Shown: in pieces, positions 523 through 6,342 of the stretch
How the letters are laid out: every line of letters starts with the position of its first letter
Position numbering within the stretch: position 1 is the stretch's first letter
Source of the DNA: Bacteroidia bacterium
GTDB taxonomy: Bacteria; Bacteroidota; Bacteroidia; NS11-12g; UBA9320
Reading direction: 5' to 3'
Length of the DNA: 51,704 bases
Assembly: GCA_020849295.1 (NCBI GenBank)
Contig: JADLGN010000009.1
Span: 1-51,704 of the forward strand
Notes under the pieces: generated by a model
Told to the model about the DNA's origin: nothing
The model's input: the letters and a program-made list of their open reading frames with translations, nothing else
Databases searched by the model: none
Made by a program: the position numbers and the translations under genes

Positions 523-2874
523 ATGAGAAATGAAGCTCAAACAAGAAGAGATTTAATTGACCCGGTTTTACTTACACTTGGGTGGACTAATGATTTGGTG
601 AAAGTGGAAGTTACTCCCGGTGGCACTGACATCATTGACGGAAAACCTAAACGCAGAAAAGGAAGAAGTGATTATTTATTGTGCCTTCCGGTTTTAGATG
701 GACATCCACCTTTACCCATTGCAGTTTTAGAAGCGAAGAAAGAAAACAGTCCGGCAACGCTTGGACTGCAACAAGCGAACACTTACGCCAAACGATTTAA
801 TGTTCCGTTTGCTTTTTCAACCAACGGAAGATTGTATTCTGAATTTGGTTTGGACAAGGGAACAATCATTGAAGCCGACCAACTCAATAATTTTCCGACA
901 CCGCAAATGTTGTTGGAACGCTATCAATCTTTCAAACACATTGAACTGAAAAGCGAAGCGGCAAGAGCATTGCTCATTCGCTACAAGACAGGCGAAGCCA
1001 CACGATTTTATTTTCAGGATGCAGCCATCAGAGCAACGCTTGAAAACATTGCTCAAGGCAACAAGAAAGCAATGCTTTGTCTGGCAACAGGAACAGGGAA
1101 AACTTTTATCGCAAAAGAATTGCTTTGGAAACTTGCGAAAGCCGGACACATACGCAGAGCACTGTTTCTTGTGGACAGAGACGAGTTGCGGACACAGGCA
1201 CTCACACACTTACAGGGAATTTTTGGTGATGATGCACAGGAAGTAACCACAAGCAACCCGAACACCAATGCAAAAATTCTGATTGCCACTTACCAAACTT
1301 TGAACATTACAGGTGACGATAAAGAACCTGCCTTTTGGAAAAAGAATTTTCCGAAAAACTTTTTCTCTCACATCATTATTGACGAGTGCCATCGTAGTGC
1401 GTGGGGAAACTGGAGCATTGTTCTCACTGACAATCCTGATGCAATTCATATCGGCTTGACTGCAACACCAAGAACACTGACAAATACCAAAGGAGAAGAA
1501 GCAAATGCTGATGCTGACGTAACAGCCAACAACATACGCTACTTTGGTGAACCCGTTTACGAATACAGCATTGCAGACGGACAGAACGATGGCTACTTAG
1601 CCGCTTGCGAAGTAATAAAACGCAAACCCGACATTGATTATCGTTTGCTTTCAAAAGATGAAATCAAACACAAGAAAATCTCTGATGCTTATTCAGGAGG
1701 TGCAGTTGCAGAAGATAAAATTGATGATGTGTATTCATCCAACGAATTTGAAAGACATCTTTTGTTGGACGACAGAATTCACAGCATGTGCAACGACTTG
1801 TTTCAGTTGCTGATTGAAACCGGAGGAGTGCATCAAAAAACAATTGTGTTTTGTGCCAGTGAAATTCATGCCGACAAAGTTTCAATCAAGTTGAACAATT
1901 TATATTTTGACTGGTGCAGAGCCAACGGCACTTCACCAAAAGAAATGTATGCCTTCAAATGCACGGCAGCAAGCACACAGCCATCAAGCAAAGAATTGAT
2001 TGCCGAGTTGAGAGGTTCAAGCAATTCTCATTTCATTGCAACAACTGTTGAGTTGCTGAGCACAGGCGTTGATGTTCCCAATCTGAACAATGTTGTTTTC
2101 TTCAAGTATATCAAAAGCCCGATTAGTTTTTATCAGATGGTTGGCAGAGGAACAAGAATTGGTGAGCCGAGAGGAAGCAAGATGATGTTCCGTTTGTATG
2201 ACTACACCAACGCAACACGACTGTTCGGACAAGATTTCATTTCAAAACCTGCATCAGAAAAAAAAGAAGGTGGCGAAGGTGGAGACCCACCACCACCGCC
2301 AGTTATTATCCGTGTGGCAGAACAACAATTTACCATTGAAATAAAGGACGAAGGCAAAAGCATATTGTGTGAGGAAGACGGCAAAGACGTTTTAGTGCCT
2401 TATGAAATTTATAAAGAACGGTTGGCTGCGGCAGTGAGTGAAAAAGTTTCTGACCTTGAAACTTTGCGTAACACCTGGGTGAACCCGATTGAACGCAAAG
2501 AGTTGTTGAATGAATTGCCCGGTGGCGAAAACGCTTTGCGATTGGTTCGTGAACTGGAAGAAGAACAGGAGTGCGATTTATATGATGTGCTTGCACAATT
2601 GGGCTTTGGCTACATACCCAAAACAAGAACAGAAAGAGCCGGTGGATTTTCTTTCAGAAATAAAGATTGGTTGAAGCCATTGCCCAACCCAACAAAAAAT
2701 GTGTTGACTGCAATTGCCGGACTGTTTGCCAAAGGCGGCATTGAAGAATTGGAATTGAACGAACTCTTTGACGAACACGAAGTAAAACAAAACGGTGGCT
2801 TTGATGCTTTGATAAATCTTCCTGAGCAACCCGGCTTTTACATTAACCAAACTAAACTGAGATTGCTTGCATGA
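523..2874 (+). CDS. hsdR: Type I restriction enzyme, R (motor/nuclease) subunit HsdR
   Basis: This is the restriction subunit of a type I RM complex, which translocates DNA with ATP and cleaves unmodified DNA far from its site. The N-terminal PD-(D/E)xK nuclease is visible as D50, E70-A-K72 and a downstream QQ..Y motif near residues 83-88. The SF2 motor follows: Walker A ATGTGKT (188-194), DECH box (287-290), TATP (313-316) and motif VI QMVGRGTR (from 538). At 783 residues it is full length for the shorter EcoEI-like HsdR group, with an EcoEI-type C-terminal domain from about 640. The ATG start gives the usual family N-terminus. It is the first gene of the operon, and its stop overlaps the hsdS start (ATGA). 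Base composition is visibly richer in GC than in the core genes after 10,158, in keeping with acquisition by transfer. Confidence 0.96.
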   Translation: MRNEAQTRRDLIDPVLLTLGWTNDLVKVEVTPGGTDIIDGKPKRRKGRSDYLLCLPVLDGHPPLPIAVLEAKKENSPATLGLQQANTYAKRFNVPFAFSTNGRLYSEFGLDKGTIIEADQLNNFPTPQMLLERYQSFKHIELKSEAARALLIRYKTGEATRFYFQDAAIRATLENIAQGNKKAMLCLATGTGKTFIAKELLWKLAKAGHIRRALFLVDRDELRTQALTHLQGIFGDDAQEVTTSNPNTNAKILIATYQTLNITGDDKEPAFWKKNFPKNFFSHIIIDECHRSAWGNWSIVLTDNPDAIHIGLTATPRTLTNTKGEEANADADVTANNIRYFGEPVYEYSIADGQNDGYLAACEVIKRKPDIDYRLLSKDEIKHKKISDAYSGGAVAEDKIDDVYSSNEFERHLLLDDRIHSMCNDLFQLLIETGGVHQKTIVFCASEIHADKVSIKLNNLYFDWCRANGTSPKEMYAFKCTAASTQPSSKELIAELRGSSNSHFIATTVELLSTGVDVPNLNNVVFFKYIKSPISFYQMVGRGTRIGEPRGSKMMFRLYDYTNATRLFGQDFISKPASEKKEGGEGGDPPPPPVIIRVAEQQFTIEIKDEGKSILCEEDGKDVLVPYEIYKERLAAAVSEKVSDLETLRNTWVNPIERKELLNELPGGENALRLVRELEEEQECDLYDVLAQLGFGYIPKTRTERAGGFSFRNKDWLKPLPNPTKNVLTAIAGLFAKGGIEELELNELFDEHEVKQNGGFDALINLPEQPGFYINQTKLRLLA

Positions 2875-4139
2875 TGGAGAAGTATCAATTTTCAAAAGAG
2901 ACAAATCTCAAAGACAAAAAATATTTTCAAATTGAAAATGGAATTTGGACTGGAGCAGAGCCGCCATTCAAGTCAATCAAAATATTACGCAATACAAACT
3001 TTGATGACTACGGATATTTTGATTTTGGAAATGTGGCAGAGATTGAAATTGAAGCAAAACAATTTCCGAGAAAAGCAATTCGCAGAAATGACATTCTAAT
3101 TGAACGCTCAGGAGGTGGACCAAATACACCCGTTGGCAGAGTTTCACTTTACGATAGAGAAGATGATGTTTTTTCATTCAGCAATTTCACTTCACGATTG
3201 AGAATTGTAAGTGATGAAATTGACCCTGAGTTTATTCATATTCAACTTTTACATTTCCATTGGAACAAGCACACTGAGAAAATTCAAACTCAAACTACGA
3301 ACATCAGAAATCTTGAATTTGATAAATACACCAAACTCAAACTTCAACTTCCAAAATCTAAAGCCGAACAAAAAAGAATTGCAGCAGAATTAAAATCAAA
3401 ACTGAATTCTGTAAATCAAATGCGGCAAGCCGCATTAAAACAAAAAGAAGCAGTTGAAGCATTGCAAGGTGCTTTGCTGAGAGAAGTTTTTCCTTACAAA
3501 GAAGGTGAGGAATTGCCAAAGGGTTGGAAATGGGAGAAGATTGGGAAAATCTGTAAAGTGCAAGCTGGTGGAACACCATCAAGAGCAGATATGTCATATT
3601 GGACAAACGGCACAATCCCTTGGTTGAAAACAGGCGAAATTGTTTTCAATGAAATAAATCAACCAGAAGAATTTATTACGCAAAGTGGATTGGATAACTC
3701 ATCAGCGAAATTAATTCCGCCACAATGTGTTTTGATTGCTTTGTATGGTCAAGGAAAAACAAGAGGCAGAGTTGCGATAAATAATTTTGAAGTCACAACT
3801 AATCAAGCTTGTGCCGCAATCATTCCACCAAAATTCCTTTCCACCAAATATCTCTTTTACTATTTATGGGCTAACTATGAAATATTAAGGGATTTGAGTT
3901 CGGGCAGCAATCAAGATAATTTGAATGCTGATTTGGTAAAAACATTTAGTGTTCCTTTTCCAAATGATAAATCAGTTCAAGATGGAATTGTAAATATCAT
4001 TTCTGAAAAAATGAATTCTCAAATTAAATTACAACAACAAACCTCCACCCAACTTGAAGCCATTGAAGCCATGCCGGCAGCGATATTGAGAGAGGTGTTT
4101 GATTTTAATGTAAGGACACAGCATGCTGTGTCCCAGTAA
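2871..4139 (+). CDS. hsdS: Type I restriction enzyme, specificity subunit HsdS
   Basis: This is the DNA-recognition subunit. It shows the family's duplicated plan: target recognition domain 1 (about 1-155), a helical conserved repeat ending ALLREVF (about 165-207), recognition domain 2 (about 215-375), and a second helical repeat ending AILREVF near the C-terminus. The two repeats match each other, which supports an intact two-TRD subunit. The start overlaps the hsdR stop; the second Met codon (2874) is an alternative start. The last nine residues (VRTQHAVSQ) and the approach to the stop codon are encoded by a perfect 20-bp palindrome (4114-4133), so the native C-terminus appears to have been replaced by a REP-like insertion. 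The target sequence cannot be read from the protein. Confidence 0.94.
   Translation: MMEKYQFSKETNLKDKKYFQIENGIWTGAEPPFKSIKILRNTNFDDYGYFDFGNVAEIEIEAKQFPRKAIRRNDILIERSGGGPNTPVGRVSLYDREDDVFSFSNFTSRLRIVSDEIDPEFIHIQLLHFHWNKHTEKIQTQTTNIRNLEFDKYTKLKLQLPKSKAEQKRIAAELKSKLNSVNQMRQAALKQKEAVEALQGALLREVFPYKEGEELPKGWKWEKIGKICKVQAGGTPSRADMSYWTNGTIPWLKTGEIVFNEINQPEEFITQSGLDNSSAKLIPPQCVLIALYGQGKTRGRVAINNFEVTTNQACAAIIPPKFLSTKYLFYYLWANYEILRDLSSGSNQDNLNADLVKTFSVPFPNDKSVQDGIVNIISEKMNSQIKLQQQTSTQLEAIEAMPAAILREVFDFNVRTQHAVSQ
4114..4133. repeat. REP-like palindrome 1, in the hsdS 3' end
   Basis: A perfect 20-bp palindrome, ggacacagca/tgctgtgtcc, centred on CATG. It encodes the HsdS tail and lies 14 bases before the RAYT start codon. 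It shares the GGACA...TGTCC arms and CATG centre with the palindromes at 4436 and 4484. Confidence 0.85.
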
Positions 4140-4147
4140 AAATAGAT

Positions 4148-4747
4148 ATGCCCTACAACCCCAATATTCATCATCGCAAATCTATCCGTTTGAAAGGATA
4201 CGATTATTCGCAGGCGGGGTTGTATTTTATTACCATTTGCACCCACAACCGGGAATGTTTTTTCGGTGAAATCGTAGGGGCAAATAATGATTTGCCCGAA
4301 ATGATTTTGAACGATGCCGGAAAAATTGCAAATGATTGTTGGTTTGAAATACCACAACATTTTCCGAATGCGGTTTTGCACGAACATATTGTTATGCCAA
4401 ATCATGTCCATGGGATTATTGAATTGACGGACAATGTAGGGGCACGCCATGGCGTGTCCCTACCGGACAATACGGGTAACACCGCAGGGACATCCCATGG
4501 GATGTCCCTGCCACAACAACCGAATACCAACCAATTTGGGAAACCAATTGCCGGTTCGGTTTCCGTAATTATCAATCAATACAAATCATCAATAAAACGA
4601 TGGTGCAATAAAAATGGTCACGAATATTTTAAATGGCAATCACGATTTCATGACCATATAATCCGAAACGAACAATCCTACCAAATCATTTCGGAATACA
4701 TCATAAATAACCCTGCAAAATGGCAGGACGACAAATTTTACAAATAA
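4148..4747 (+). CDS. REP-associated tyrosine transposase (RAYT, Y1/HUH family)
   Basis: This is a single-strand DNA nuclease of the IS200-like Y1 family, the group that acts on REP palindromes. The HUH motif is H86-V-H88 inside MPNHVHGI, and the likely nucleophile is Y184 in SEYIINNP. The N-terminus (RKSIRLKGYDYSQAGLYFIT) is typical of the family. At 199 residues it is near full length. A loop between the HUH motif and the C-terminal helices (about 97-122) is encoded by two palindromes and contains the parallel peptides ARHGVSLP and TSHGMSLP. A third palindrome encodes VGANNDLPE (about 43-51). The gene sits between hsdS (8-base gap) and hsdM (5-base gap) in the same direction, so it is transcribed with the RM genes. 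Whether it is still active is unknown; the catalytic residues are present. Confidence 0.93.
   Translation: MPYNPNIHHRKSIRLKGYDYSQAGLYFITICTHNRECFFGEIVGANNDLPEMILNDAGKIANDCWFEIPQHFPNAVLHEHIVMPNHVHGIIELTDNVGARHGVSLPDNTGNTAGTSHGMSLPQQPNTNQFGKPIAGSVSVIINQYKSSIKRWCNKNGHEYFKWQSRFHDHIIRNEQSYQIISEYIINNPAKWQDDKFYK
4278..4297. repeat. REP-like palindrome 2, inside RAYT
   Basis: Perfect 8-bp arms, gggcaaat / atttgccc, enclose a 4-base loop. It lies in frame in the RAYT gene. Unlike the other three it lacks the CATG centre, but it keeps the G-run and C-run ends. Confidence 0.75.
4436..4463. repeat. REP-like palindrome 3, inside RAYT
   Basis: A 28-base palindrome beginning gtaggggcacgcc and centred on CATG. 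One pair is G.T and all others are Watson-Crick. It is read in frame as VGARHGVSLP. Confidence 0.88.
4484..4511. repeat. REP-like palindrome 4, inside RAYT
   Basis: A perfect 28-bp palindrome beginning gcagggacatccc and centred on CATG. It is read in frame as AGTSHGMSLP. Only 20 bases separate it from palindrome 3, which makes a paired arrangement like that of REP doublets. Confidence 0.9.
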
Positions 4748-4752
4748 AAATA

Positions 4753-6342
4753 ATGGCAAAGCAGAAGAAAGAAAATAACGGCAAAGCAATAACCTCAGTG
4801 GCTTCAATGAACAAAGCCATAAAAGGTATTTGCAATATTTTACGGAGAGACAAAGCAAAGGGAGCAAAATTGTATGTGCCCGAAATAACCTGGCTTTTCT
4901 TTTTACGCTACTTGGATTTAAAAGACCAACAGGCAGAACAAAGAGCAACCGCATTAGGGCAATCGTATGAATCTGTTTTGCCTTCACCTTATCGTTGGAG
5001 AGATTGGGCAGCACCTTACGACAAAAGCAAAACGAAAGAAGAAAGTGTAAGCAACAAACTGCAAGGTTGGAAACGCTTTGAGTTGGATAATGCCGGAACA
5101 GACACTTACCTGAAATTTATTAATGAAGATTTGTTTTCGTTTCTGAAAAAACTGAAAGACAAACCCAACGCAAGTGACTTGCAAAAAGTAATTTCAGAAA
5201 TTTTCATCAACAAGGAAAAGACAGTAGTTGTCAGCGTTACCAATATGCAGGATGTGATTGACAAAGTGCAGGAGTTGAGCAATGCAAAGATTGACGACCA
5301 ACACATGTTCCCAATCTCACAGGCATTTGAAGGACTGTTGCCGAGTTTGGGAGAAAAGAAAAATGACGGAGGACAATTCTTTACACCACGGGAGGTAATT
5401 CGTTTGATTGTTGATGTTGTTCAACCGCAGTTGGACAAAACTATTTACGACCCTTGTTGCGGGACAGGAGGATTTTTAATTGAAGCATACAAGCATTTAA
5501 TCAACCAGACACCAACGCCAACACAAATTGCTTCACTGAAAAACGAAACATTTTTTGGAAGAGAGGATGCAGACGAAGCCATTCCGGTTTTGTTGGCAAA
5601 CATGGCTTTGCATGATATTGACTTACCAAGAATTTGGCACGGCAATACTTTGACAGGTGCAGTAACATTCGGAGATTTATTCAGAGGAGCACCCAATCAG
5701 TTTGATTTCATTCTCACTAATCCGCCATTCGGAAGCAAGGAAGGAAAAGCAGCACAGGCACAGTTTGCATACAAGACAGGCAAAGCACAAATTCTTTTCA
5801 TGCAACACATCATTGACAGTTTGGCGGACAACGGTATTTGCGGAATGGTAATAGATGAAGGCGTTTTGTTTCATACCAAGACAGCAGCATACAAACAGAC
5901 GAAAAGAAAATTGCTGAATGAATGTGATTTGTTTTGCATCATCAGTTTGCCCGGTGGCGTATTCGTAAACGCAGGTGCGGGTGTGAAAACTGATTTGCTT
6001 TTTTTCAAGAAAGGAAAAGCAACAGAAAAAGTTTGGTATTACGACATGACATTGGGTGATGATTTCAGAGCAAGAAAAGTGAACAAAGGAAACCCACTTG
6101 AATACAAACATTTTGAAGATTGTTTGAATCGTTTGCGTTCACCGCTTGACAGTCCTGAAAGAATCAGTGAACGCAGTTGGTTCATGACACGAAAAGAAAT
6201 TGAAGACAAACAATATGATTTGAAAGCAGTGAACAACAACGCACCGGACTTTTCCGACAAGCGAACAACAAAAGAACTTTACAAGATAATTGATGAAACG
6301 CAAAAGGAAATTCAAAATGCTTTAACCGAATTGATGAAATGA
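4753..6342 (+). CDS. hsdM: Type I restriction enzyme, methyltransferase subunit HsdM
   Basis: This is the N6-adenine methyltransferase subunit of the type I complex, needed with HsdS for both modification and restriction. An HsdM N-terminal helical domain (about 10-160) precedes the catalytic domain. The AdoMet-binding motif is Y232-DPCCGTGGF and the catalytic motif is N323-PPF. The length of 529 residues is normal. The frame is open from an ATG at 4720, but that start would overlap the RAYT gene; the ATG at 4753 gives MAKQKKENN and is preferred. The stop overlaps the start of the next gene (ATGA), so translation is probably coupled. Confidence 0.96.
   Translation: MAKQKKENNGKAITSVASMNKAIKGICNILRRDKAKGAKLYVPEITWLFFLRYLDLKDQQAEQRATALGQSYESVLPSPYRWRDWAAPYDKSKTKEESVSNKLQGWKRFELDNAGTDTYLKFINEDLFSFLKKLKDKPNASDLQKVISEIFINKEKTVVVSVTNMQDVIDKVQELSNAKIDDQHMFPISQAFEGLLPSLGEKKNDGGQFFTPREVIRLIVDVVQPQLDKTIYDPCCGTGGFLIEAYKHLINQTPTPTQIASLKNETFFGREDADEAIPVLLANMALHDIDLPRIWHGNTLTGAVTFGDLFRGAPNQFDFILTNPPFGSKEGKAAQAQFAYKTGKAQILFMQHIIDSLADNGICGMVIDEGVLFHTKTAAYKQTKRKLLNECDLFCIISLPGGVFVNAGAGVKTDLLFFKKGKATEKVWYYDMTLGDDFRARKVNKGNPLEYKHFEDCLNRLRSPLDSPERISERSWFMTRKEIEDKQYDLKAVNNNAPDFSDKRTTKELYKIIDETQKEIQNALTELMK

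Follow-up and report, generated by a model that had tools for sequence, protein, structure and literature searches.

REPs lying in frame inside tnpA_REP genes, between the HuH and Y motifs, were described by Quentin et al. 2018 (PMC6006769). According to these authors, in-gene REPs are a unique and predominant feature of TnpA_REP subclass 2.4, which is found in Cyanobacteria and Bacteroidetes, and the inserted region was judged to be a peripheral extension with little effect. In addition, GTAG REPs within the ORFs of unrelated genes and at the ends of ORFs were reported by Di Nocera et al. 2013 (PMC3733652). The core feature of the locus analysed here, REPs inside their own REP-associated tyrosine transposase (RAYT) gene, is thus already known since 2018, and the locus therefore serves mainly as a clear and quantified example of it. 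Added here are the counts of in-gene palindromes across relatives and a side observation on restriction operons.

The locus lies in a stretch of 51,704 nucleotides (the window, that is, the whole stretch of DNA that was analysed) of contig JADLGN010000009.1 from a Bacteroidia bacterium (GCA_020849295.1; 2.68-Mb genome, 99.99% complete). All features are on the + strand. The gene order hsdR-hsdS-RAYT-hsdM (523-6342) begins with an hsdR-like restriction subunit (523-2874; ResIII, EcoEI_R_C), followed by hsdS, encoding the type I restriction specificity subunit (2871-4139), the RAYT gene of 199 aa (4148-4747) and hsdM, encoding the type I methyltransferase subunit (4720-6342). The hsdM ORF is given from 4720 and has an in-frame ATG at 4753, directly 3' of the RAYT stop.

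The RAYT protein gave no match in Pfam. The NCBIfam model REP_Tyr_transpos (NF047646) matched with an E-value of 1e-12 and 47.9 bits, below its cut-off of 80, and the match was split by an inserted loop. Despite this score, the predicted fold and the motifs still place the protein in the RAYT superfamily. A profile built from 26 relatives hit PDB entry 4er8, the E. coli TnpA_REP in complex with a REP hairpin, with an E-value of 6e-9. The AlphaFold model (mean pLDDT 79.9, core above 90) had the same entry as its top Foldseek match (E 3.6e-6), followed by the TnpA proteins of IS608 and ISDra2. Judged by its motifs and modelled fold, the window gene is a TnpA_REP/RAYT. The subclass 2.4 motifs NH[IFV]H, WQ and YIxNNP are present as NHVH (HVH codons 4403-4411, residues 86-88), WQ and YIINNP; the latter contains the conserved Y184 (codon 4697-4699), the catalytic tyrosine by homology. 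The variable insertion of subclass 2.4 between HuH and Y is also present, as residues 98-129 (codons 4439-4534), between a strand (86-93) and a helix (138-155). In the model this loop has a pLDDT below 50 and is probably disordered.

Four palindromes had been assigned to the RAYT gene or its immediate vicinity in a preliminary description of this DNA, and all four were recovered at their coordinates. The first, 4114-4133 (GGACACAGCATGCTGTGTCC), is perfect and lies outside the RAYT gene, in the last hsdS codons; it forms the core of a flanking REP-like palindrome (4111-4136). The C-terminus of HsdS (VRTQHAVSQ*) is itself palindrome-encoded (4114-4139). The second, 4278-4297 (GGGCAAATAATGATTTGCCC), has one mismatch and is extended by a GTAG foot at 4274-4277, giving a single-foot REP-like hairpin (4274-4297) 5' of the HUH motif that encodes VGANNDLP. 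The other two are 28-mers: REP 1 (4436-4463, GTAGGGGCACGCCATGGCGTGTCCCTAC, one mismatch) encodes VGARHGVSLP and REP 2 (4484-4511, GCAGGGACATCCCATGGGATGTCCCTGC, perfect) encodes AGTSHGMSLP, and both peptides fall in the variable loop that separates the HUH motif from the tyrosine motif. Translation reproduced the in-frame peptides previously read from these palindromes (ARHGVSLP and TSHGMSLP from the 28-mers, VGANNDLPE from 4278-4297), and the description of REP-type palindromes in the RAYT frame, accommodated by a loop that follows the HUH motif, was borne out. The gene thus has the frame-preserving REPs that characterize subclass 2.4. A palindrome of 20-40 bp with a GTAG foot, as expected of a REP, was found in REP 1 and in 4274-4297. 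Subclass 2.4 has either canonical long REPs or double-foot ones, and the double-foot pattern GT[AG]G ... C[TC]AC is present with both feet in REP 1 (GTAG...CTAC) and with one foot in 4274-4297, and is degenerate in REP 2 (GCAG...CTGC) and in the 5' flanking palindrome.

When the RAYT gene was shuffled among synonymous codons, keeping protein and codon usage, the best palindrome was equalled in 1/1000 shuffles. When folded as single-stranded DNA, all four palindromes beat 200/200 dinucleotide shuffles (z -4.1 to -5.3). The two 28-mers exceed what is expected by chance given the encoded protein.

The RAYT gene is single-copy in the host genome. A scan of the 2.68-Mb genome for GGGACAYSCCATGGSRTGTCCC, with a 22-base core and up to 3 mismatches, returned the two 28-mers only. 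REP 1 was the single match to broader double-foot patterns, and the remaining patterns tried for the 28-mer family gave nothing beyond the RAYT gene in this genome. Double-foot-type patterns occurred in 0 to 13 copies in most other genomes tested and in 34 copies in one genome. The 28-mer palindromes are thus low-copy here, in contrast to classical REPs with their hundreds of copies, and lack the many host-genome copies typical of the REP family. A search of a plasmid collection gave four weak matches. A resident REP population of this family was ruled out, because mismatch-tolerant patterns gave no copy beyond the gene, and recent REP mobility in this host is consequently not supported. Absence of the palindromes elsewhere in the genome had been proposed as grounds for rejecting the preliminary reading. 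The absence is real and argues against active REPs resident in this genome. It does not contradict REP identity, because in relatives matching palindromes occur both within the gene and next to it.

Loci for comparison were obtained from a genome-contig search, from relatives and from 295 genomes sampled from the class; a RAYT was present in 85 of the sampled genomes. Among 101 RAYTs with recognisable motifs, 77 had an internal palindrome with an arm of at least 10. The preliminary view that in-gene REPs are exceptional is thus not tenable, as they are also the known, predominant feature of subclass 2.4 (PMC6006769). By site, 89/101 such internal palindromes lay between HUH and WQ, where the loop is highly variable among relatives, and 9 lay before HUH; at L065, L071, L072 and L076 palindromes occupy the site corresponding to window 4274-4297. 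Palindrome density was 1.66/kb inside the gene, about 1/kb in the 400-bp flanks and 0.21/kb beyond 1 kb. Internal and flanking palindromes of the same locus matched at 53% of 53 loci compared with 3.6% after shuffling loci, and synonymous-codon shuffles were exceeded at p ≤0.01 by 26/45 relatives. In the closest relative, L005 (74% identical protein), the peptides RHGVSD, RHGVALP and CHGMSP are each encoded by palindromic DNA, so that the same loop peptides did not occur there on non-palindromic DNA, an outcome that had been named as contrary to the REP reading. Identical internal REPs were found at independent, non-tandem sites of one genome in G067 and G041. No pair of near-identical genes, one empty and one occupied, was found and no insertion event was caught, which weighs against the insertion reading. 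As a separate observation, the REP-encoded start of the loop is similar at L018, L020, L026 and L030, with the peptide GADLRVCP or variants of it; this type of loop start was found in Bacteroidota and in one proteobacterial MAG.

The best explanation, with a probability of roughly 0.8, is that the window gene is a RAYT of Quentin subclass 2.4, which it resembles in nearly all features tested, and that its REPs have inserted into the RAYT coding sequence without breaking it. The HUH/Y1 enzyme, or recombination or repair at REP hairpins, would deliver REPs to the RAYT gene or its surroundings; in-frame insertions would persist where the loop tolerates them, and gene transfer would carry the internal REP along. 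At four loci (L031, L032, L047 and L191) the reading frame is broken across the palindrome-bearing loop. Insertion without regard to frame, followed by selection, would leave such loci; draft-assembly errors of MAGs or ordinary pseudogene decay could also produce them.

A different explanation is that the internal REPs have a role in cis: the RAYT would bind the hairpin in its own gene or transcript and so control its expression, or the hairpin would serve as donor for REP spread. It would fit the finding that palindromes are no rarer within the genes than beside them: when arms of 9 and a G+C filter were applied, 83/107 genes had an internal palindrome and 50/107 one within 300 bp of the gene, 46 having internal ones only. 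It would also account for the differences between REP 2 and its counterpart in L005, which fall on both arms and preserve pairing. However, such arm-matching changes also arise from fresh REP copies or from hairpin template-switch repair, the sequence, number and position of the palindromes are highly variable, and a minority of relatives have none. A function in cis is considered improbable, though it is the strongest of the competing explanations.

Even less probable is the expansion of in-frame tandem repeats by slippage or quasi-palindrome correction, with no mobile REPs involved. Plain in-frame tandem repeats do occur in the same loop at L013 (ELHSPENAN units), L019, L020 and L054, and REP 1 is bounded exactly on both sides by the 8-bp direct repeat CGGACAAT (left copy 4428-4435, right copy 4464-4471). 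Slippage, however, leaves unexplained both the GTAG/CTAC feet and the agreement between internal and flanking palindromes within a locus, and an abutting direct repeat is not general in relatives. The REP together with one repeat measures 36 bp, or 12 codons, in frame (4428-4471), and the flanked REP 1 could be an in-frame insertion scar. As a target-site duplication or insertion signature, the repeat was dropped: only REP 1 has one. It was not relied on because it is not general among relatives and because IS200/IS605 enzymes are not known to make target duplications. Chance palindromes in coding sequence, in favour of which there is nothing except a protein constraint that permits them, are refuted by the synonymous shuffles, the folding z-scores and the recurrence in relatives, and have a negligible probability.

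The position of the gene in a restriction-modification operon was a further observation, made after the fact. In 26 genomes, 8/50 RAYT loci lay within 2 kb of hsdS compared with 0.14 expected, a count that takes in the window itself, where the pattern was first seen; all eight were on the same strand as hsdS and seven were just downstream of it. For other Y1 transposases of the same genomes, 1/46 was judged to be near hsdS (G037; Fisher p 0.032 against the 8/50 RAYTs). In the class sample, some loci of which repeat loci counted earlier, Methylase_S was the commonest Pfam family (8) of 77 upstream neighbours, and restriction subunits were commonest among downstream neighbours. Of 113 RAYTs placed in a tree, 23 had type I genes no more than 2.5 kb away, in 22 cases wholly on the same strand; the restriction-linked loci include the window, L007, L008, L010, L013, L021, L070, L114, L115 and L116. 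The restriction label changed 22 times on this tree, at least 16 of the changes being forced by well-supported branches, which is no fewer than with shuffled labels. This indicated that the link recurs across the tree and does not go back to a single ancestor, and vertical co-inheritance as its whole cause was ruled out. Restriction-linked RAYTs did not have a significantly greater internal-REP content (p 0.15, or p 0.10 for internal only). Restriction loci are hot spots for gene insertion, and a general hot-spot effect may lie behind the link. No report of a link between RAYTs and type I restriction operons was found in the open-access papers searched. A speculative and rather doubtful proposal is that a subclass 2.4 RAYT together with its internal REP makes up a portable unit of one ORF, and that such units have repeatedly entered type I operons beside hsdS or been retained there. 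Enzyme and REPs would then contribute to change in the restriction locus.

Palindromes occur more often inside than beside the gene in this group, so that the gene and its presumed substrate form one transferable unit. If the placement in restriction operons holds up, RAYTs would be tied to plastic defence loci.

Compared with known systems, the window RAYT shares the HUH fold with E. coli TnpA_REP (4er8). In the alignment with this structure W94, Q95, H101 and R104, named by Quentin et al. 2018 (PMC6006769) as guide-recognition residues, correspond to W163, Q164, H170 and R173 of the window protein, whereas E100 is replaced by D169 and the E. coli protein has no REP-encoded loop. With subclass 2.4 (PMC6006769) it has in common the motifs, a length near 194 aa, the variable HuH-Y insertion, a double-foot GTAG...CTAC REP, frame-preserving in-gene REPs and the Bacteroidota host group. 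It differs in that the 28-mer family does not recur elsewhere in its genome. Moreover, it lies in a type I restriction-modification operon, while the word 'restriction' has 0 occurrences in the main text of PMC6006769. The GTAG REPs of Di Nocera et al. and the Rickettsia palindromic elements cited by them (PMC3733652) resemble the window in that palindromes are tolerated in coding frames, either as peptide loops or as C-terminal additions, including REPs that overlap ORF ends. The targets of those elements are unrelated genes, whereas those in the window are the RAYT itself and the 3' end of hsdS.
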